In this document: positions 17,080-26,271 of the stretch, in pieces
How positions within the stretch are numbered: the first letter of the stretch is position 1
Layout: each line of letters starts with the position of its first letter
Assembly (NCBI GenBank): GCA_017521195.1
Contig: JAFXGP010000084.1
Span: forward strand, 1-45,462
Length of the DNA: 45,462 nt
Source: Lachnospiraceae bacterium
Lineage (GTDB): Bacteria > Bacillota > Clostridia > Lachnospirales > Lachnospiraceae
Reading direction: 5' to 3'
The notes under the pieces: generated by a model
Seen by the model: the letters and a program-made list of their open reading frames with translations, nothing else
What the model was told of the DNA's origin: nothing
Databases searched by the model: none
Made by a program: the position numbers and the translations under genes

Positions 17080-17532
17080 TTAACCTTCTACGACAACTAC
17101 TCCATCCTCTTTAACAGTAATTGTCATTCCTGTTTTTACATATTCTAAGAAATCGTCTCCCAAAGAATCAATTACAGGCATTTTCGTATCTTCACCTTCC
17201 AACCAAACATCTGCTAAGATAACTCCTGCACCTGCAAGAGAATCGATTGGTTTGGAGAACAACATACATGCCGGCTGTCTGCCCATAGAACATGCACAAT
17301 ATAATACCATACCACCGGTTGTGGAACCGATTGTCTGTGGCAAGCAAAGTGCTTTACCAAACATCTGGTGATTAAAGAGGTCCGGATTGTTCTGATCGCC
17401 GCAAGTAGCCTTTTTATCCCCAAACTGTAATGCTTTCTGGAAAGAAGCTAAGGTATTTAATCCACCGTGGGAAACAAGTGCTTCTGCTTTTACGCATCCG
17501 GGAGCAACTACTCTTCCTTTAAATTCTTTCAT
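17080..17532 (-). CDS. Aconitase X swivel (small) subunit, divergent
   Basis: A 150-residue DUF126/AcnX swivel-domain protein, the partner of the large subunit encoded just upstream (one base between stop and start, strong AGGAGG). Known AcnX enzymes are hydro-lyases such as cis-3-hydroxyproline dehydratase and phosphomevalonate dehydratase. The backbone pattern is kept: GKALCLPQTIGSTTGGMVLY, then GRQPACMLFSKPIDSLAGAGVILADVW. But the usual serine-rich loop after the GS pair is replaced by TTGG, and the SFWGGVD-type segment of the family is FQKALQFGDKKA here. So this is a subfamily whose substrate cannot be transferred from the characterised enzymes. Confidence 0.82.
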   Translation of the reverse strand: MKEFKGRVVAPGCVKAEALVSHGGLNTLASFQKALQFGDKKATCGDQNNPDLFNHQMFGKALCLPQTIGSTTGGMVLYCACSMGRQPACMLFSKPIDSLAGAGVILADVWLEGEDTKMPVIDSLGDDFLEYVKTGMTITVKEDGVVVVEG

Positions 17533-17533
17533 C

Positions 17534-18808
17534 TTAGTTGCCTCCTTTCGTAATCTGAACTAAAATTTCATCATCTGTATAGTAACGAGCTGTGGTATAG
17601 GTACGAAGCTTGTTAGAAGATGTAATTACAGGCATCTTGCCGCACAATGGGTTGTTCATGTACATTAATGGACAAATGTAAGAAACAATCACTCCACATG
17701 CTTTTAAACGTGCTGCATAAGGAGTTTTTTCAAATTCCTTAATTACCGCAGGAGCTGCTGTAAATACAGTCGGAATCAATACTTTTTTATTGCCTGCTTC
17801 TTTTAAACCATTTTCCACTTTGTCTGTCCAGGTCTTTAACTGTTCTAAACTCATATGAGGACATCCCATGAAACAAAGTTTTGGTTTTGCATCTTTGTTT
17901 TTCCACATTACAGGATAGCTGTCATATACTCTCTGTAATTCTGCATCATCAATTACATAAACTTTTGCATCTTTTGTAATCAGTTTTTCACCCTGTTCTA
18001 CGGCATCAGGAGTAAGGTTTTCTACATGGTATAAACCTACCGCACCGTTAGAAGCTGTTGCTGCACCAAAGTCTTTTAAGTATGTGCAGGCAGCATCATC
18101 AAGTTCTGTACCTAACCATTTATCAAGGCCTTTAATATATGGAACATCTTCCATAACCTTCATACCGATGGCAGAACCAAGAAGCTGTGCTTCCGGTTTT
18201 TTCGTTGTTTTGATTTCTACAACCCAAGTTGCTTTTCTTCCTTCATCGGTAACAAGACCAAAATAAGGAACATATCCAACGATAGACTGCATAATATCAA
18301 TAATACCGGAGTTACGGTTTACTTTTGCACCAAGGACAGAGTTTGCATATACTACTGCGGAAGATTCTGCCCAACTTAACACTTCTCCTTTGGCAGGTTT
18401 GTTTCCTACTTCATCCATATAACATGCACAGGTAAATGCATTATCATCCATTAAACCAAGGGATTTTAACTGTCCTTCATAAAAGTCCTGTTTGGAATAC
18501 ATAATTTTATTAAAGATAATATCCTGAATAAAATTCTTTGGTACATTAGGATCACATGGTCTTGGGTCCACAGAGAATTTCTGCTGTGAAATAGCACCAT
18601 CTTCAATTAATTTATTAAATAAATCATAGACAGGTCCTAAAGCTTTTAAACCAAAGGATGTAACTAAATGATTATATTTACTTGTTACAGGAATTAATTT
18701 TTCTGCGCCAAAAAGTTCACCATAACGAACTACGGATTCCATAACTTTTGCCATAGTTTCGCCTTTGGAACCATTTAATATGGCCTGTTGTTCTTCTGTC
18801 AAAAACAT
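17534..18808 (-). CDS. Aconitase X catalytic (large) subunit
   Basis: A 424-residue DUF521/AcnX protein. The family signature WAESSAVVYANSVLGAKVNR (146-165) is intact, and likely Fe-S cysteines are C127/C129, C316 in MGCPHMS, and C379 in ICPLMYMNNPLCG. The start is ATG 18808 (MFLTEEQQAIL) with AAAGGAAG upstream; the frame runs 14 codons further back through the hairpin at 18830-18863. Family knowledge gives a dehydration of a hydroxy acid using an Fe-S cluster; the substrate here is unknown. It sits between the ene-reductase and the small subunit. Confidence 0.87.
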   Translation of the reverse strand: MFLTEEQQAILNGSKGETMAKVMESVVRYGELFGAEKLIPVTSKYNHLVTSFGLKALGPVYDLFNKLIEDGAISQQKFSVDPRPCDPNVPKNFIQDIIFNKIMYSKQDFYEGQLKSLGLMDDNAFTCACYMDEVGNKPAKGEVLSWAESSAVVYANSVLGAKVNRNSGIIDIMQSIVGYVPYFGLVTDEGRKATWVVEIKTTKKPEAQLLGSAIGMKVMEDVPYIKGLDKWLGTELDDAACTYLKDFGAATASNGAVGLYHVENLTPDAVEQGEKLITKDAKVYVIDDAELQRVYDSYPVMWKNKDAKPKLCFMGCPHMSLEQLKTWTDKVENGLKEAGNKKVLIPTVFTAAPAVIKEFEKTPYAARLKACGVIVSYICPLMYMNNPLCGKMPVITSSNKLRTYTTARYYTDDEILVQITKGGN

Positions 18809-18829
18809 AATGTTCTTCCTTTCTGTTAA

Positions 18830-18863
18830 TTTGCGGTGACACATCATCATGTATCACCACAAA
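18830..18863 (-). other. Intercistronic hairpin between ene-reductase and aconitase X
   Basis: In the 69-base gap the minus-strand RNA can form a 14-pair stem (TTTGTGGTGATACA with TGTGTCACCGCAAA, two G-U pairs, loop TGATGA). No U-run follows, so it is unlikely to terminate. It may protect or mark an mRNA processing point that sets the ratio of the two products. Confidence 0.55.
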
Positions 18864-18877
18864 CTATATTTTCTTTC

Positions 18878-20950
18878 CTATAATTTCATTGCAACATCCC
18901 ATGCGCCCCAGATAACTGTACGAAGGCTTCCTACCTGCGCAGCATCTCCGATTACATGTACATGTTTGCTCTTAGCAAATGCCGGTGTCGGAACATAACC
19001 AACAGATACTACTGTTGTATCTGCTTTTAATTCTTTTACTGTACCATCTTTCTGGGCAATAACAACGCTTCCGTCTTTGATTTCTTTCACACTGGCTTCT
19101 ACATAGGTAGGCACGTTGTTTGAAACAAAGAAGTCACGTAAGTAACTTGCATTTGGAAGAGGCACTTTGTCAGATACTATTAAGTCATGTTTTGCTTCCA
19201 CGATAACCGGTTTTTTACCATGTAAGTAAAGGTCATAAGCGATTTCACAACCGGATAAACCACCACCGATAATAACTACATCTTCACCAATGTTACTCTG
19301 ATTTCCAAGTAAGAAATCAACTGCTTCCACAGCTTTTTCGATACCTTTCACAGGAATCTTACGTGCTTTTGCACCGGTTGCAACGATAACTTCATCTGCA
19401 TTTAATTCTTCAATACTCTTAACTTCTGTATTCATATGAACATCGATCGGATATTTCTGAAGTTCTCTTTCATACCAAGCGATAAGCATTCTGTCATGTT
19501 CTTTATAAGAAGGAGCTGCAGCTGCAATAAAGATACCGCCCAGACGATCTGTTTTTTCGTAAAGAGATACTTTATGTCCGCGTTTTGCAAGTAAAATAGC
19601 TGCTTCCATACCACCAATACCACCACCGATGACAGCAATATTTTTCACTTTCTTCGCCGGTTTGATTTCATATTTATTGGACTGCATTACTCTAGGATCC
19701 AATGCACATCTTGCAATATGGCTTACATCATGAAGTGACTGCTGATTTGCTACACCTTTGTATTTTGCCATGTTAAAACAAGCATTGTGACAGCAAATAC
19801 ATGGACGGATATCTTCCATACGTCCTTCAATTAATTTTGTAACCCATTCTGAGTCAGCAAGGAACTGACGGGCTACACCCATACCATCGATAAGACCTTC
19901 TTCAATTGCTTTTGAAGCAACATCTACTTCCATACGTCCTGCACAAACAACCGGGATATCTACAAACTTCTTAATATGAGCCACGTCATCTAAGTTACAG
20001 TTTGTAGGCATATACATCGGTGGATGAGCCCAGTACCAAGAGTCATAGGTACCATTATCTGCATTAAGCATATCGTACCCTGCATCCTGAAGATATTTTG
20101 CTGCTTTTTCAGATTCTTCCATATCACGTCCAAATTCTTGGAATTCTTCCCCTGGTACTGCACCTTCACAGAAACCTTTCATCTTAGAGGTTACGGAATA
20201 GCGAAGAGAAACCGGGAAATCTTCTCCACATGTTTCTTTGATTGCTTTTACAATTTCTACAGGGAAACGATAACGGTTTTCAAAGGAACCGCCGTATTCG
20301 TCAGTACGTTTGTTAGTACATTCCATCGTAAACTGGTCTAACAAATAGCCTTCATGTACAGCATGTACTTCCACACCGTCAACACCTGCATCCATACATA
20401 ATTTTGCTGTTTTTGCAAATGCATCTACGATTTCGTGAATTTCTTTTTTAGTAAGAGCACGTGTGGTCAAATCTTCTGCCCAACGGGAAGGTAACTCACT
20501 GGGAGCTGCACTTTCATAGGGAAGGTCGATGATTGGTTTGATTAATGTGCTGATTACTTTTGATTTTGCAAGCGGAACAAGTGGAGATGTAATCGCCCAT
20601 GAACGTCCCATTCCAGCGGTAAGCTGGATAAATAATTTAGCTCCTGTTTTATGAATTTCGTTCATAAATTCTTTTAATTCCACGAACATTTTCTCATTTT
20701 CATAGAGCCACTGTCCCCAATATGTACTCTTAATCGGAGCAATACCGGTAATAATAAGACCTACATTGTTATTTGCTTTTTCAAGGAAAAACTTTGCAGC
20801 CTCTTTGTCAAAATGATTTCCTGTTAATTCCATCCAACCGAACAGCGATGTTCCGCCCATTGGACACAATACGATTCTGTTTTTAATTTCCACATCCCTG
20901 ATTTTCCAAGGGGTAAACAGTGGAGAATACTTTGGATCCATGTTACTCAT
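18878..20950 (-). CDS. Old yellow enzyme-type ene-reductase (2,4-dienoyl-CoA reductase / BaiCD-like)
   Basis: A 690-residue flavoprotein. Residues 1-375 form the FMN-binding TIM barrel (NRIVLCPMGG; EVHAVHEGYLLDQFTMECTNKRTDEYGGSFENRYRFP). A cysteine cluster C384-x2-C387-x3-C391 and C415 should hold a [4Fe-4S] centre, although the last spacing (23) is wider than the usual 11-12. The C-terminal half has two Rossmann motifs, VIGGGIGGMEAA (FAD) and VIIGGGLSGCEIA (NAD(P)H). Relatives reduce activated C=C bonds: dienoyl-CoA, bile-acid enones, cinnamate, bilirubin. The substrate here is undetermined. GAGGGAGGAAAT precedes the ATG. It heads the operon with aconitase X. Confidence 0.88.
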   Translation of the reverse strand: MSNMDPKYSPLFTPWKIRDVEIKNRIVLCPMGGTSLFGWMELTGNHFDKEAAKFFLEKANNNVGLIITGIAPIKSTYWGQWLYENEKMFVELKEFMNEIHKTGAKLFIQLTAGMGRSWAITSPLVPLAKSKVISTLIKPIIDLPYESAAPSELPSRWAEDLTTRALTKKEIHEIVDAFAKTAKLCMDAGVDGVEVHAVHEGYLLDQFTMECTNKRTDEYGGSFENRYRFPVEIVKAIKETCGEDFPVSLRYSVTSKMKGFCEGAVPGEEFQEFGRDMEESEKAAKYLQDAGYDMLNADNGTYDSWYWAHPPMYMPTNCNLDDVAHIKKFVDIPVVCAGRMEVDVASKAIEEGLIDGMGVARQFLADSEWVTKLIEGRMEDIRPCICCHNACFNMAKYKGVANQQSLHDVSHIARCALDPRVMQSNKYEIKPAKKVKNIAVIGGGIGGMEAAILLAKRGHKVSLYEKTDRLGGIFIAAAAPSYKEHDRMLIAWYERELQKYPIDVHMNTEVKSIEELNADEVIVATGAKARKIPVKGIEKAVEAVDFLLGNQSNIGEDVVIIGGGLSGCEIAYDLYLHGKKPVIVEAKHDLIVSDKVPLPNASYLRDFFVSNNVPTYVEASVKEIKDGSVVIAQKDGTVKELKADTTVVSVGYVPTPAFAKSKHVHVIGDAAQVGSLRTVIWGAWDVAMKL

Positions 20951-20984
20951 GCGATTTCCTCCCTCATTAAATATACTCCTCTAT

Positions 20985-21030
20985 ATCATACTTCATTTCA
21001 TTGACAAAGTCAAAATTATAAGACTATAAT
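20985..21030. promoter_or_regulatory. Divergent promoters sharing a -35 palindrome
   Basis: Plus strand: TTGACA (21001-21006), 18-base spacer, TATAAT (21025-21030), towards the MATE gene. Minus strand: TTGACT (21013-21008), 17-base spacer, TATGAT (20990-20985), towards the ene-reductase. Both -35 boxes lie in the palindrome TTGACAAAGTCAA, so polymerase cannot sit on both at once. Confidence 0.75.
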
Positions 21031-21126
21031 GTTATTCTAATTTTAATAAATTGATGGATGAAAATAATAAAATCGGAAGTTTTTGAATAAAAATATCCTT
21101 TTAGCTATGAAAGAAGGAGAAAATAT

Positions 21127-22524
21127 ATGCTAAAGAATTTCAGAAAAAAATTTATCGGTACCAAAGATTTTTATATCTATGTTCTTGGTATTGCCGTTCC
21201 CATGATTATTCAAAATGCAATCACTAATTTTGTCAGCTTTTTGGATAATATTATGGTAGGTCAGATTGGTACGGAACAGATGTCCGGTGTAGCCATAGCA
21301 AATCAGCTTATTTTTGTATTTAATTTATGTATTTTCGGCGGTGTATCCGGTGCCGGAATTTTTGGAACCCAGTTTTTTGGCAAAGGCGATTATGAAGGTC
21401 AGAAATATACCTTTCGTTTCAAAGTATATATTTGTGCCCTCTTAACAGTAATTGCTTTATTATTAGGAAACTTCTTAGATACAGAATTGATTTCTCTTTA
21501 CCTAAACGATACCGGTTCCGTGGGTGATATCTCTCTTGCCTTAGATTATGGAAAACACTATCTGGCAATTATGCTGATAGGCTTAATTCCTTTTGCAATC
21601 TCTCAGGTATATATCAATACTATTCGTGAAACCGGGCACACCTTGATTCCGATGATTGCCAGTATGATTGCTGTATTCACAAATCTGATTTTAGATTACT
21701 GCTTAATTTTTGGTGCCTTCGGATTACCTCAAATGGGCGTTCGTGGTGCTGCTCTGGCTACCATTATTGCCCGCTTTATAGAATGTATCATCGTTGTTGT
21801 CTGGACTCACTTAAATCCGGGAAAAAATAAATATATCGTAGGTGCTTACCGCAGTTTTTATATCCCCGGAAATATTTTAAAAGATGTTCTTAAAAAAGGA
21901 ACTCCGTTAATGATTAATGAAATGTTATGGTCTATGGGAATGACCGTAATTGTACAATGCTATGCCATCCGCGGTTTAGAGGTGGTTGCCGCACAAAATA
22001 TTTCCTCAACCATCACTAACTTATTTAATATTGTATATATCCAGTTGGGTGCCTCTATTGCCATTGTGGTCGGTCAGCTTCTTGGTGCCGGTAAATTAAA
22101 GGAAGCCAGAGATGCCGATACCAAAATGATTTTCTTTGTTGTCACTGCCTGTATCGGAATGTCTGTACTTATGAGTGCTTTTGGGGGATTGTTCCCACAG
22201 ATTTATAATACCGAAGAAGCCATCAAAGAACTGGCTACAAAATTTATCTTTATTTCTGCCCTAATGATGCCTGTTTGTGCCTTTTGTCACAGTACCTATT
22301 TTACTCTTCGTTCCGGCGGAAAAACCGGAGTTACCTTCATTTTTGACTCCGTTTATACTTGGCTTATTGTAATTCCTGTAGCTTACTGTTTATCCCACTT
22401 TACAAACTGGAGCATTGTACCTGTATTCTTTTGTGTACAATCCATGGAATTTGTAAAAGCAATTATCGGATTTTTTATGGTAAAAAGCAATGTATGGCTA
22501 AATACGATTGTAAAAGATTCATAA
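21127..22524 (+). CDS. MATE family multidrug/metabolite exporter
   Basis: A 465-residue MATE (MatE/NorM-like) transporter with about 12 predicted membrane segments. Typical stretches are GIAVPMIIQNAITNFVSFLD, MVGQIGTEQMSGVAIANQ and GTPLMINEMLWSMGMTVIV. Such proteins export cationic or organic compounds with Na+ or H+. GAAGGAG precedes the start. It is divergently transcribed from the ene-reductase operon and followed after 14 bases by the FUSC-like gene, so export of the pathway's substrate or product is a fair inference. Confidence 0.88.
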   Translation: MLKNFRKKFIGTKDFYIYVLGIAVPMIIQNAITNFVSFLDNIMVGQIGTEQMSGVAIANQLIFVFNLCIFGGVSGAGIFGTQFFGKGDYEGQKYTFRFKVYICALLTVIALLLGNFLDTELISLYLNDTGSVGDISLALDYGKHYLAIMLIGLIPFAISQVYINTIRETGHTLIPMIASMIAVFTNLILDYCLIFGAFGLPQMGVRGAALATIIARFIECIIVVVWTHLNPGKNKYIVGAYRSFYIPGNILKDVLKKGTPLMINEMLWSMGMTVIVQCYAIRGLEVVAAQNISSTITNLFNIVYIQLGASIAIVVGQLLGAGKLKEARDADTKMIFFVVTACIGMSVLMSAFGGLFPQIYNTEEAIKELATKFIFISALMMPVCAFCHSTYFTLRSGGKTGVTFIFDSVYTWLIVIPVAYCLSHFTNWSIVPVFFCVQSMEFVKAIIGFFMVKSNVWLNTIVKDS

Positions 22525-22538
22525 GGAGATTTTGAAAT

Positions 22539-23447
22539 ATGTTAAAAAAATGGTCCAGATTACGTGTTGGTCCAAGAACTATGAAAACTGCTTTAGCAGT
22601 AACCTTATCCATCATCATGGTATCCTTTTATGGTTCCAGTACCTCTAACTTAATATTCGCTACCATTGGTGCATTATCTGCCATGGGAGCCACCTTTAAA
22701 GAATCTGTGTCATCCAGTGTTTCCCAAATAGCAGCCGTCGTCTTTGGTGCTTTGGCAGGAGTTCTTTTGCTTTCCCTACATCTTCCACCTTTACCGGCTT
22801 CCGGTATCGGAGTTATTGTGGTGATTACTTTTTACAATTTGTTGCGTCTGAAAATATCTCCAACCTTGGCATGCATAGTGGTAGTTACTATCTGTAATCT
22901 GACTTCTACAACACCATTTGTTTATGCCATGGAACGAATCTGGGACACTGCCATCGGTTTATTAGTAGGTATGCTGATTAATCTGTTTATCTTTCCTTAT
23001 GACAACAGCAAACAGATTCGTAATACCATTTACAGATTGGATAAAGAATTAATTCTCTATTTGGAAGATATGTTTGACGGCGATGAAAACTTACCTAACG
23101 TAAACAAAATGGTAACTTCTTTGGATGAGATCAATCATGGTTTAAAAATATTTTCCGACCAAAAACTTCTGTATCATAGAAAAAAACAACGTAATGATCT
23201 GCACTCTCTTTGGGACTGCGAAGAAAAAGCCCGCCAGTTAGTACTTCATTTGGAAATCTTAAGCGCGCTTCCCTTCCCCGGTGTTTTAAATCCTTACAAT
23301 CGTGAACGTTTGGAACGGAATGGAGCTAAAATCAGAGATCAACGAATTCCGGCAGAACCTTCGGAATTAGATGTTGTAACAAATTTCCATGTAAGTCAGG
23401 TATTAGATTTAAGAAGAGAATTGATAAATGGATTGAGGGAGAATTAA
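22539..23447 (+). CDS. Aromatic acid exporter family (FUSC/ArAE-like) membrane protein
   Basis: A 302-residue protein. The N-terminal half is four to six hydrophobic helices of the ArAE_1/FUSC type (MKTALAVTLSIIMVSFYGSS; LIFATIGALSAMGATFKESV; IWDTAIGLLVGMLINLFIFP). The C-terminal half is cytosolic and helical. Relatives include p-hydroxybenzoate exporters, but many members are uncharacterised. It is translated from AAGGAG right after the MATE stop. The terminator hairpin at 23435-23461 overlaps its last codons. Confidence 0.82.
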   Translation: MLKKWSRLRVGPRTMKTALAVTLSIIMVSFYGSSTSNLIFATIGALSAMGATFKESVSSSVSQIAAVVFGALAGVLLLSLHLPPLPASGIGVIVVITFYNLLRLKISPTLACIVVVTICNLTSTTPFVYAMERIWDTAIGLLVGMLINLFIFPYDNSKQIRNTIYRLDKELILYLEDMFDGDENLPNVNKMVTSLDEINHGLKIFSDQKLLYHRKKQRNDLHSLWDCEEKARQLVLHLEILSALPFPGVLNPYNRERLERNGAKIRDQRIPAEPSELDVVTNFHVSQVLDLRRELINGLREN

Positions 23448-23461
23448 TCTCCCTCTTTTTT
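23435..23461 (+). terminator. Terminator overlapping the FUSC-like stop codon
   Basis: A perfect 8-bp stem GAGGGAGA/TCTCCCTC with loop ATTAA (which contains the TAA stop), followed by TTTTTT. It ends the MATE-FUSC transcript, so the flavoprotein pair downstream likely has its own promoter. Confidence 0.85.
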
Positions 23462-23476
23462 ATCATCATTCCTACA

Positions 23477-23505
23477 TTGCATTCCCCACTAAAAAATGCT
23501 ACTCT
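23477..23505 (+). promoter_or_regulatory. Possible promoter of the flavoprotein-ferredoxin reductase pair
   Basis: TTGCAT (23477-23482), a 17-base spacer and TACTCT (23500-23505). A moderate match placed correctly between the terminator at 23461 and the start at 23544. Confidence 0.4.
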
Positions 23506-23543
23506 AGAAGTAACGAAAAACAAATAAAAAAGGAGGAATTACT

Positions 23544-25064
23544 ATGGACAAAATGTTTGATGTTATCGTAGTTGGTGCCGGAAACGGTGGCTTGGCAGCA
23601 GCTGCAAATACAGCAAAAGAAGGTCTCAATACACTTTTGCTGGAAAAACATAATATCCCAGGTGGATGTGCTACCAGCTTCCGTAGAGGACGTTTCGAAT
23701 TCGAACCATCTCTACATGAGTTATGTAGTGTAGGGACAGCAGAACGTCCTAATGTTGTCTACAAGGTTTTTGATGACCTTGGTGCTAAAATTAATTGGGA
23801 ATATGAAAAAGGACACATCTTCCGTTCTATTTCCAAAGGTGAAAATGGCTTTGATGTCCGTGTCAATGCAGGAATCGAAGGTTTCTGTGAATCTCTGGAA
23901 AAAGAAGTTCCGGGATGTAAAGAAAATGTTCGTGCACTTCTTGCCCTGAAACCAAAGATTGCCGCAGCCATCGATTATATCTATGCTACCAAAGGAAATC
24001 CAAACGGCTTAGTTATGCTCTTAAAACATGCTGATTTCATGCGTGCTGCAGGTCACAGTGTGGAAGAGGTTATGACAGCTCTTGGCATTCCTGAAAAAGC
24101 ACAAAATATCATTTGTACTTACTGGGGATATCTCGGAGTACCAACAGATGAATTGAACTGTATGCACTTTTTAAACATGCTGTACGATTATGTAGTAGAC
24201 GGCGCTGCTATGCCTCGTCATCGTAGCCATGAACTCTCTCTTGCTCTCATTGATGTTATCCAGAAACACGGCGGACAGGTTTGGTATAACAGTGAAGTTA
24301 CAGAATTCCTATACAAAGAAGACGGCAGTGTTTGCGGTGTGGTTGCTAATGGTGAAAAATTATATGCCAAGGAAGTTATTTCCAACGTTATCCCTCATAA
24401 TGTATTTAACATGAGTGAAACAAAATATATCCCTGAACAGAACTTGAAACTTGCTAATGCCAGAGAATTCGGTATCTCTGTAGCCACTGTTTACTTAGGA
24501 TTAGACTGTACTATTGAAGAACTTGGTATGACGGATTACACCGTATTTATTTCCGGCAATCCTAATCCTCGTGTACAGAACGATACCAGAGCTGAAGACG
24601 GTCTCTATATTGTTAACAGCTTAAACAATGTGATTCCTGACAGCAGTGAACCGGGTACCTGTACCATGTTCTTTACCATTCCGGTATACGGACATGATGT
24701 TCCAAAGGATCTGACACCTCAGGGCTACAAAAAATACAAAAACGATTTAGCTAAGAAGTATATTGAAGATGCAGAAAAAGTTCTCGGCATTTCCATTATG
24801 CCTCATATCGAAGAAATCAGTGTTGCAACACCGGTTACTTTTGCCCGCTACTTAGGAACACCGGAAGGAACTATTTATGGTTATAAATTATCCGGTTGGG
24901 ATAATCTTATGGCCCGTACTGCCGGTGAAAAGAACGATTATGCAATTCCGGGACTTAGCTTCTGTGGAGGTCACTACATTCGTGGTGACGGTTACAGCTG
25001 TGCTTATATTATGGGTGATACCATCGGAAAACGTGTTGCAAAACGTTTAAAAGGAGGTGCTTAA
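23544..25064 (+). CDS. CrtI/phytoene desaturase-like FAD-dependent oxidoreductase
   Basis: A 506-residue flavoprotein. The N-terminal dinucleotide-binding motif is VIVVGAGNGGLAAAANTAKEG, followed by LLEKHNIPGGCATSFRRG, the pattern of the phytoene desaturase/carotenoid isomerase superfamily. The C-terminus has the FAD-closing motif PGLSFCGGHYIRGDGYSCAYIMG. No carotenoid genes are near, so a desaturase, isomerase or reductase acting on another substrate is more likely. AAAGGAGG precedes the start. It is followed directly by the ferredoxin-type reductase, which may be its electron partner. Confidence 0.82.
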   Translation: MDKMFDVIVVGAGNGGLAAAANTAKEGLNTLLLEKHNIPGGCATSFRRGRFEFEPSLHELCSVGTAERPNVVYKVFDDLGAKINWEYEKGHIFRSISKGENGFDVRVNAGIEGFCESLEKEVPGCKENVRALLALKPKIAAAIDYIYATKGNPNGLVMLLKHADFMRAAGHSVEEVMTALGIPEKAQNIICTYWGYLGVPTDELNCMHFLNMLYDYVVDGAAMPRHRSHELSLALIDVIQKHGGQVWYNSEVTEFLYKEDGSVCGVVANGEKLYAKEVISNVIPHNVFNMSETKYIPEQNLKLANAREFGISVATVYLGLDCTIEELGMTDYTVFISGNPNPRVQNDTRAEDGLYIVNSLNNVIPDSSEPGTCTMFFTIPVYGHDVPKDLTPQGYKKYKNDLAKKYIEDAEKVLGISIMPHIEEISVATPVTFARYLGTPEGTIYGYKLSGWDNLMARTAGEKNDYAIPGLSFCGGHYIRGDGYSCAYIMGDTIGKRVAKRLKGGA

Positions 25065-25065
25065 G

Positions 25066-26271
25066 ATGGCAAGACCAAAATTATCTAAATTAAATCCTAT
25101 GGATTTTACAAAAATGACTCCTGCCAGACAGGCAAAGATTGAAGCAGCTCCTGCAAAAGCTCTTCCACCAACAGATTCATACAAACCAAACCAGTTAGCC
25201 AATGCTCTTCATCCGGAAATTCAGTATCTGAAAGTTTCTAAAATCGTAGAACATGGTAAAGATGCCAAAAGCTACTGGTTAGAACCAAATGCAGAAAAGG
25301 GAACCACTGCTTTAGCATGGTTTAGTGCAGGACAATATTTATCCATTTCTCTCGAAATCGGTAATATTAAACTCTCCCGTCCTTACTCCTTATCCTCTTC
25401 TCCAAGAGAATCTATGGAAGGACACTATATGCTTACCATCAAACGTGTTAAAGACGGTCTGGCATCTAACTATATCTTAGATAACTGGAAAGTAGGTACA
25501 GAAGTAACTGCTTCCGAACCTCTCGGTGTATTTACTTATGAACCACTCCGTGATGCAGATACTGTTATCGGTATTGCTGGAGGAAGCGGTATTACTCCAT
25601 TCCGTTCTCTTGCAAAAGCTATTGCAGATGGAGACGAAGATGCTAATCTGATTCTCCTTTACGGAAGCCGCACTTTAGATGATGCCATTTTCCAGGAAGA
25701 ATTCAAAGCATTAGAGAAATCCTGTGATAAATTTAAACTCGTAAATGTATTAAGCGATGAAACTGATGCAACTTGTGAAAAAGGATTTATTACAGCAGAA
25801 TTAATTAAGAAATATGCTCCGGAAGGTAATTATTCCCTGTTCTTATGCGGACCACAAGCAATGTATGAATTTGTAGATAAAGAAATTGCTACTTTAGGTC
25901 TTCGCAGAAAATTCGTTCGTCACGAATTATTCGGCGAATACTTCAATCCATCTAAGGAAGCAGATTATCCGGCAAATGTAGCCCCTGAATTCAAAGTTAC
26001 TGTTCGTATTGCAGGCAACGAAACAACCATTACTGCTCCGGCAGATACTTCCCTGCTTCGCAGTTTAGAAGCAAATGGTATTGCGGCTCCTGCTCATTGC
26101 CGAAGCGGTGAATGTGGATGGTGCCATTCCAGACTTGTAAGCGGTGAAGTATATACACCAAAATCTGTTGACGGACGTCGTGAAGCAGACTTGATTTACG
26201 GATATATTCATCCCTGCTGTGCTTTTCCATTAAGTGATGTAACTATTGAAGTTCCACCGGTAAGAAAATAA
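25066..26271 (+). CDS. FAD/NAD(P)-binding oxidoreductase with C-terminal [2Fe-2S] ferredoxin domain
   Basis: A 401-residue modular reductase. Order: a ferredoxin-reductase FAD domain (SRPYSLSSSPRE is the FAD RxYS motif), the NAD(P) domain (VIGIAGGSGITPFRSLAKA; FLCGPQAMYEF), and a plant-type [2Fe-2S] domain with C345-x4-C350-x2-C353-x30-C384. I start at ATG 25066, behind AAAGGAGGTGC; a GTG at 25057 lies inside that site. Such proteins pass electrons from NAD(P)H to a partner enzyme. The gene follows the CrtI-like flavoprotein after one base. Confidence 0.88.
   Translation: MARPKLSKLNPMDFTKMTPARQAKIEAAPAKALPPTDSYKPNQLANALHPEIQYLKVSKIVEHGKDAKSYWLEPNAEKGTTALAWFSAGQYLSISLEIGNIKLSRPYSLSSSPRESMEGHYMLTIKRVKDGLASNYILDNWKVGTEVTASEPLGVFTYEPLRDADTVIGIAGGSGITPFRSLAKAIADGDEDANLILLYGSRTLDDAIFQEEFKALEKSCDKFKLVNVLSDETDATCEKGFITAELIKKYAPEGNYSLFLCGPQAMYEFVDKEIATLGLRRKFVRHELFGEYFNPSKEADYPANVAPEFKVTVRIAGNETTITAPADTSLLRSLEANGIAAPAHCRSGECGWCHSRLVSGEVYTPKSVDGRREADLIYGYIHPCCAFPLSDVTIEVPPVRK

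Follow-up and report, generated by a model that had tools for sequence, protein, structure and literature searches.

The two solved enzymes of the aconitase X (AcnX) family are TkAcnX, an archaeal phosphomevalonate dehydratase of two subunits (7cnr/7cns), and AtAcnX, a single chain of the hydroxyproline type. In both, common residues hold the C1–C2–C3 backbone, the carboxylate, and the C3 hydroxyl of the substrate, whereas the residues that contact the rest of the substrate differ; Type-IIc to Type-IIf proteins have the landmark residues of neither known function, and these bacterial subclasses carry no assigned function in the available text of the structural study (PMC8184944). Here we analyze a stretch of 45,462 nucleotides from a Lachnospiraceae bacterium (assembly GCA_017521195.1, contig JAFXGP010000084.1; hereafter the window), in which the genes for both subunits of an AcnX share the minus strand with the gene for an ene-reductase of the OYE type. 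The window corresponds to contig C79 in an assembly of 2.54 Mb, with a completeness of 81.7% and a contamination of 4.7%. We consider it probable that the products of these three genes (17080-20950), as a self-contained system, dehydroxylate a carboxylic acid reductively in two steps; the acid would be free, not bound to coenzyme A (CoA), and we infer it only as a class.

The reductase, likewise, has described relatives. FldZ, a clostridial 2-enoate reductase, resembles the window OYE, as compared by description, in its OYE-like N-terminal domain, four cysteines, and C-terminal flavin adenine dinucleotide (FAD)/NADH domain; clostridial 2-enoate reductases reduce free enoates with NADH, which classical OYEs do poorly or not at all, and no dehydratase of the AcnX kind is named with FldZ in the available text of that study (PMC5882074). 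The best full-length NCBIfam models for the window OYE are BaiCD (NF041087; 362.7 bits against a cut-off of 825) and the bilirubin reductase BilR (NF045599; 343.6 bits against 750), both of which belong to the same superfamily but are different enzymes.

In bile acid 7-dehydroxylation, the dehydratase is reportedly not of the aconitase type, and the substrate is said to be CoA-bound for part of the way. That pathway follows a like logic of elimination and then ene-reduction but oxidizes the rings first, and aconitase is not mentioned in the available text of its description (PMC11574389). Among the search results listed for open-licence PubMed Central papers, no title or opening line of an abstract describes a pairing of AcnX with an ene-reductase. 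The sequence of dehydration and ene-reduction is a known theme; new here would be the family of the dehydratase and that CoA is apparently not involved. The pathway is real, widespread, and uncharacterized; 578 stretches in one genome collection encode a relative of the window AcnX, of which the best 80 were examined.

A cassette of AcnX and an OYE-type reductase

In the window, 27 bases separate the OYE gene from the gene of the AcnX large subunit, and a single base separates the latter from the gene of the small (swivel) subunit. A preliminary description of the window had taken the three for one operon and had held that AcnX and ene-reductase belong together, and both claims are borne out by the conservation of the operon, by co-occurrence across genomes, and by the pairing of AcnX with different OYE lineages. 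Among 120 loci with an AcnX at least 45% identical to that of the window (the window itself not counted), 102 have an OYE gene on the AcnX strand and no more than 4.5 kb away; once two duplicates are removed, the figure is 100 of 118 distinct loci. Where flanking sequence exceeds 3 kb on each side, the count is 75 of 90 (74 of 89 without duplicates). An adjacent OYE is found in 73/80 named loci, which were picked for likeness to the window, in 29/40 of the remaining loci, and in 13 of the 16 AcnX genomes of a one-per-genus family sample. A slightly stricter script, which recovers an OYE at 101 rather than 102 loci because its score limits differ, gives the order OYE–AcnX–swivel at 93 loci, the same order with OYE as two open reading frames (ORFs) at 2, OYE–AcnX at 1, and AcnX–swivel–OYE at 5, with OYE uncalled at 19. 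Chance falls far short of explaining how the three minus-strand genes are arranged.

Of the samples from which the loci were drawn, those of the family, class, and phylum partly overlap, and each of these three includes the window's own genome. The family sample holds 299 Lachnospiraceae genomes, one per genus, of which 22 have an AcnX match at E<=1e-15 and 16 of these a match at least 50% identical; the class sample has an AcnX match in 24 of 391 genomes at E<=1e-70, and the phylum sample in 7 of 398. The named loci are the best 80 of the 578 confirmed stretches in the genome collection. Seven loci with an AcnX below 45% identity (L041, L042, L043, L045, L158, L160, and L177) and one with its AcnX ORF uncalled (L044) were omitted from the 120. 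Judged by record titles, the ruminant gut catalogue RGIG supplies 49 of the 80 named loci, with caecum, colon, or rectum named for 48 and jejunum for 1, a count within one catalogue that is no measure of hindgut preference. When neighbors within 10 kb were grouped across 95 loci, AcnX was recovered at 85, swivel at 71, and OYE at 69, followed by two groups of antisense shadow ORFs at 15 each and every other family at 10 or fewer, in a grouping where antisense ORFs pushed out some genuine ones. Because no further family is frequent near the three genes, the cassette stands alone: only OYE and the large and small AcnX subunits form a system, and this system recurs in many gut bacteria.

Co-occurrence was tabulated for the 299 family genomes, with AcnX counted as close at 50% identity or more and OYE at 700 bits or more. 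Close AcnX is found in 16 genomes and close OYE in 23; 14 genomes hold both, 2 AcnX only, 9 (of 283) OYE only, and 274 neither (Fisher p = 2.4e-16, with genera treated as independent). Counted as lacking close AcnX are G241, which has a 59-residue AcnX match beside a swivel gene and an OYE fragment, and G013, G085, G136, G170, and G293, with matches of at most 31% identity; OYE matches below 700 bits, such as that of G075 (681.6 bits, 50%), do not count as close. In the two AcnX-only genomes (G015 and G038), a divergent OYE of about 30% identity adjoins AcnX. For 12 AcnX genomes without an adjacent OYE, a search of the whole genome found one elsewhere in 11, at 51–72% identity, and five of these are genomes of 0.9–1.2 Mb with one OYE match each; the twelfth, G346, is OYE-less and has an AcnX in which Glu162, Ser163, Lys414, and Tyr418 are all replaced. 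In genus g208, all 7 further AcnX genomes carry an OYE (best match 55–63%).

The window OYE consists of a flavin mononucleotide (FMN) barrel (Oxidored_FMN, 189.6 bits), four cysteines (CICCHNAC...C), and an FAD/NAD(P) domain (Pyr_redox_2, 135.2 bits), in agreement with the 2-enoate-reductase plan of OYE domain, four cysteines, and FAD/NADH domain. It carries the motifs HEGY and YDSWYWAHPP, and HEGY with YDxW(Y/F/W)xxHPP is kept in 23 of 23 aligned OYEs. A tree of 124 OYE sequences, made by a quick method and with long branches flagged by the program, places 68 rows in a main clade; 67 of these are AcnX-linked, and the 68th comes from an AcnX genome (G388) where one contig carries both genes, about 14 kb apart. 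Of the 27 rows in a mixed clade, 15 are linked OYEs, 5 are unlinked ones from AcnX genomes, and 7 come from AcnX-free genomes. A deep clade comprises 13 longer OYEs, all linked and lying either upstream or downstream of AcnX (two gene orders), and a fourth group unites four linked rows (L039, L171, L173, and L179) with one from an AcnX-free genome. With four OYE lineages and two gene orders, the tree suggests that the reductase may have been exchanged several times across AcnX cassettes. Each of the 16 AcnX genomes has an OYE, and AcnX occurs in pairs with four lineages of it; AcnX therefore seems to need the reductase, and the dependence seems mostly one-way, as the reductase can exist without AcnX.

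Several observations weigh against so close a partnership, or against the reaction proposed for it. Fifteen of the 90 well-flanked loci have no adjacent OYE, the named loci L060, L083, L101, L122, and L123 among them, and the named loci, as the best 80 of 578 stretches, are a selected set. In G309, the catalytic residues of AcnX are replaced as they are in G346, yet the genome has an OYE at 54%. The second cluster cysteine is Asp in 4 of the 23 aligned OYEs (L165, L176, L177, and L180). Since 9 of 283 genomes without close AcnX carry an OYE of at least 700 bits, the enzyme has uses of its own. Relatives of it in L258, L259, L260, and L266 have a gene set of the HGD-D/BadF/CdhC type nearby, so that an OYE unlinked to AcnX is not necessarily its partner. 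The 2-enoate reductase class, moreover, does not reduce every enoate, as FldZ took cinnamate and p-coumarate and no aliphatic enoate (PMC5882074). At L156 (5577-10248), no OYE lies beside AcnX, and the swivel gene is directly followed by genes for a small membrane protein, SdhC-like by eye and without match in Pfam and NCBIfam; for an SdhA/FrdA-family flavoprotein, which has FAD_binding_2 and Succ_DH_flav_C domains and falls under the cut-offs of the listed NCBIfam models; and for an iron–sulfur protein of the SdhB/FrdB family (TIGR00384, 117.8 bits, cut-off 88). It is possible that OYE was swapped here for a fumarate-reductase-type complex, in this one genome only; because the arrangement is not repeated in 7 other AcnX genomes of genus g208 and the genome holds two OYEs elsewhere, L156 is a suggestive single case.

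The occurrence of OYE without close AcnX, and of OYEs unlinked to AcnX in several genomes, would also suit an arrangement in which the two enzymes share a class of compounds without acting in series: the OYE would reduce exogenous enoates (plant cinnamates, for example) as an electron sink, and AcnX, as a hydratase/dehydratase, would make or dispose of the hydroxylated form. Against this stand the presence of an OYE in all 16 AcnX genomes (14 close, 2 divergent and adjacent) and the pairing of four separate OYE lineages with AcnX, and we regard such an arrangement as unlikely, if worth keeping in mind.

Catalytic residues and a candidate reaction sequence

By profile, the large subunit matches the solved AcnX chains 7cnr_A (E=1.6e-51) and 7d2r_A (E=2.3e-26), and the two adjacent, separate subunits, each over the cut-off of its family (PF04412 and PF01989), agree with a Type-II architecture. 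The window AcnX shares with TkAcnX, its best solved relative, the two subunits, three cysteines, Glu-Ser pair, Lys, and Tyr, and differs from it in being bacterial and in having an ene-reductase as operon partner; it is homologous to AtAcnX, with which it has the common C1–C3 binding residues. Of the cluster cysteines, Cys141 and Cys330 correspond to Tk Cys110 and Cys283, and Cys393 to At Cys508, which is equivalent to Tk Cys342 (PMC8184944). The common backbone-binding residues Glu162, Ser163, Lys414, and Tyr418 are kept, together with these three cysteines and the GSTT loop of the small subunit. Ser70 of the small subunit, nearly invariant in an alignment of 13, is likely equivalent to the proposed general base (Ser70 in AtAcnX, Ser62 in TkAcnX; PMC8184944), a match to the solved chains that was read from the motif and not aligned by a tool. 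When modeled with AlphaFold2 from 18 sequences, the large subunit reaches a mean predicted local distance difference test score of 55.7, too poor to use.

The preliminary description had suggested dehydration followed by reduction, and the conserved catalytic residues are consistent with such a sequence. The AcnX heterodimer would bind a 3-hydroxy (beta-hydroxy) acid at its iron–sulfur cluster; the small-subunit serine would take the C2 proton, the C3 hydroxyl would go to the cluster and Lys414, and the product released would be an alpha,beta-unsaturated acid (2-enoate). The OYE would then saturate the double bond, with electrons from NAD(P)H passing via FAD, iron–sulfur cluster, and FMN, for a net conversion of hydroxy acid and NAD(P)H to saturated acid and water. 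Most likely, this would serve a fermenter as an electron sink. Because the residues fit a beta-hydroxy acid and 2-enoate reductases reduce free enoates, the simplest course would lead from the hydroxy acid via its enoate to the saturated acid, with no part for CoA. What we observe are the genes, the operon with its conservation and co-occurrence, and the retained catalytic residues; direction, substrate class, absence of CoA, and electron-sink role are inferred. The strict link of AcnX to an ene-reductase predicts both a reaction class and an assay; the function of this AcnX is therefore directly testable with AcnX, OYE, and NADH. If the proposal is true, gut anaerobes have a CoA-free route for disposing of electrons by turning hydroxy acids into saturated acids.

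The same two enzymes might run in reverse, with the OYE desaturating an acid and AcnX hydrating the product, in the manner of a CoA-free beta-oxidation. The OYE gene is first in most operons, which would suit that order; NAD+-driven desaturation of a free acid, however, is unfavorable. Enzymes of the aconitase superfamily act by dehydration and hydration alike (PMC8184944), but the assays of FldZ were of a reductase that depends on NADH (PMC5882074), and we think the reverse direction quite improbable.

A known AcnX reaction unrelated to the reductase, namely dehydration of cis-3-hydroxy-L-proline or mevalonate-5-phosphate, is more improbable still, and the preliminary description had already marked it as a possible objection. 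The NCBIfam hydroxyproline dehydratase model scores 146.2 bits against a cut-off of 700. In a profile alignment, the hydroxyproline-specific At Asp203 and Ile206 fall opposite Thr64 and Gly67, and the mevalonate-phosphate-specific Tk Asn53 and Asn79 opposite Ala70 and Asp95, so that neither set appears to be kept; these matches are tentative, because the loop lies beside a gap and a single-sequence alignment sets Tk Asn79 opposite Asp100 instead. At column 95, Asp is found in most of the window clade and Asn in L041, L042, L043, L045, L160, and L177. The missing landmark residues of Types IIc to IIf, noted above for the structural study, would point the same way if the window clade belongs to one of these types, and in AtAcnX the product becomes an imine, not an enoate for an OYE (PMC8184944). 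No proline or mevalonate genes are present among the recurring neighbors of the 95 loci, nor among the 25 of 83 direct-neighbor families listed. Model score, specific residues, and neighbors thus led us to reject the known reactions.

Most members of the window clade carry a signature of HLVTSFG, with small changes, and DPRPxD, from which L039 and L040 deviate. Separately, in two loci of a single genus (L158 and L160, from genomes G309/G346), an AcnX of 39–41% identity with its catalytic Glu, Ser, Lys, and Tyr replaced persists as an open two-gene pair beside unrelated genes.

Hints to the substrate

Genes in some loci offer weak hints to the substrate. MarR-type regulators lie upstream of and co-directional with the cassette at seven loci (L048, L050, L059, L085, L090, L124, and L167), and C45-type Ntn hydrolases lie upstream of OYE at L090, L112, and L167 (82.9, 85.6, and 82.0 bits, cut-off 85); L070 has a choloylglycine hydrolase (425.8 bits, cut-off 350). 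The fullest operon, L167 (2606-10819), encodes on one strand a MarR regulator, enzymes of the iron-alcohol-dehydrogenase and aldehyde-dehydrogenase types, the C45-type hydrolase, OYE, AcnX, and swivel. Since these accessory genes were noticed after looking, no significance is claimed for them. Of the 86 co-directional genes directly next to the cassette, 13 are contig-edge pieces or likely shadow ORFs; among the other 73, which were scanned against Pfam, no family dominates: the commonest, sugar-nucleotide enzymes and response regulators, reach 5/73, and CBAH and MarR_2 reach 3 each. At L123, a TAXI-type TRAP transporter stands directly upstream of AcnX, in the place of OYE, and a related TRAP transporter lies 7–9 kb away at L091.

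A more distant context is provided by Rhodococcus opacus, an aerobe, in which a plasmid-borne AcnX homologue (L306, 15028-16757) is 48.4% identical over 98% of the query, with loops HVVTSMG and DPRPYD and catalytic residues kept. Its immediate neighbors are a divergent LysR gene and a symporter gene, and a gene for 3-carboxyethylcatechol dioxygenase is found about 5.5 kb away. The symporter scores 424.3 bits for the metabolite/H+ symporter subfamily (cut-off 443.45), and its best model with a full name is the shikimate transporter (362.4 bits, cut-off 538). The plasmid stretch around the homologue has aromatic-acid genes and no annotated OYE. Aromatic or carbocyclic hydroxy acids, perhaps freed from conjugates, would suit these weak hints, which were again noticed after looking and do not single out one compound.

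Taken further, the cassette may represent a third job for AcnX: a CoA-free and ATP-free reductive dehydroxylation of free beta-hydroxy acids that would act as an electron sink, carried across many families of gut Clostridia by a movable two-enzyme cassette whose reductase has been exchanged several times. In its boldest form, the substrate would belong to the aryl beta-hydroxypropionates; one example is 3-(3-hydroxyphenyl)-3-hydroxypropionate, which occurs in urine and which paper titles and opening lines of abstracts presumptively tie to gut Clostridium. We offer this wider proposal tentatively and lean slightly against it.

Neighboring genes and signals in the window

The preliminary description had placed seven genes in this region and assigned each to a family; all seven predicted ORFs are found where it put them, with the assigned families all above Pfam cut-offs (Table 1). 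Genes for a MATE protein (MatE, 143.4 bits) and an ArAE/FUSC-type exporter (ArAE_1, 57.1 bits) diverge from the minus-strand OYE–AcnX–swivel genes and are followed by those for a CrtI-like flavoprotein and a reductase of the FNR type. The CrtI-like protein has NAD_binding_8/Amino_oxidase matches, with a carotenoid isomerase as its top NCBIfam model (103 bits, under the cut-off of 586.9), and the FNR-type protein combines NAD_binding_1, Fer2, and FAD_binding_6 domains.

Table 1. Features of the region within the window; residue numbers replace positions in the third row.
Feature	Position	Strand	Basis
AcnX small (swivel) subunit	17080..17532	-	PF01989 (AcnX_swivel_put) 39.6 bits, cut-off 27; GSTT loop
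AcnX large subunit, Type-II-like	17534..18850	-	PF04412 302.8 bits, cut-off 31.5
AcnX large subunit, key residues	Cys141, Cys330, Cys393 (cluster), Glu162, Ser163, Lys414, Tyr418		Columns over 29 sequences
OYE-type ene-reductase, BaiCD/bilirubin reductase/2-enoate-reductase architecture	18878..20950	-	Pfam, NCBIfam, PDB relatives, alignment, tree
Overlapping divergent promoter-like sites, OYE operon and MATE gene	20985..21030	both	Consensus scan only; 21001-21030 (+) 12/12 matches, 21013-20985 (-) 10/12 matches
Terminator-like hairpin between ArAE and CrtI genes	23435-23455		
CrtI/CrtISO-like flavoprotein and [2Fe-2S] FNR-type reductase	23544-26271	+	Pfam; genes overlap 8 bases

Whether all seven genes, exporters and CrtI–FNR pair included, could form one pathway, as the preliminary description had suggested, can be weighed against the neighborhood counts. 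Their adjacency in the window favors this, as do the promoter-like sites that diverge and overlap in the interval from OYE to MATE, and an ArAE-type exporter would suit an acidic product; but a MATE protein above 100 bits is found near AcnX in only 1 of the 120 loci (three more hold MATE relatives of 55–64 bits), and ArAE, CrtI, and FNR in none of them. The arrangement of MATE, ArAE, CrtI, and FNR beside AcnX is not conserved. CrtI relatives (E<=1e-40) occur in 15 of the 299 family genomes, and just two of these 15, G000 and G109, contain an AcnX of at least 50% identity as well. Besides the window, 14 genomes have a CrtI match; the CrtI locus was read in 7 of them (L247–L253), and in all 7 FNR lies next to CrtI. 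The pair is a separate two-gene module, and a terminator-like hairpin does precede CrtI, as had been described. Genome comparison, the check that the preliminary description had itself named, thus kept OYE, AcnX, and swivel together and removed MATE, ArAE, CrtI, and FNR. On these counts and the independent spread of CrtI, we rejected the seven-gene pathway, which strikes us as barely credible.

Across the region, promoter-like sites number 23 against a shuffle mean of 29.8, and so are not in excess, and terminator-like sites number 15 against 6.5 in shuffles. The pairing of CrtI with FNR suggests a reductase that may feed a carotenoid-isomerase-like flavoprotein, with a predicted role as a saturase or redox isomerase.

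Further OYE-type genes were observed outside the cassette. The genome of the window (L264) has two more in tandem, 34% and 31% identical to the window OYE. The set that recurs beside the OYE relatives of L258, L259, L260, and L266 comprises HGD-D, a BadF/BcrAD-type ATPase, and a CdhC-like protein (families tested in L259 only), together with an ATPase judged by eye to be CooC-like.

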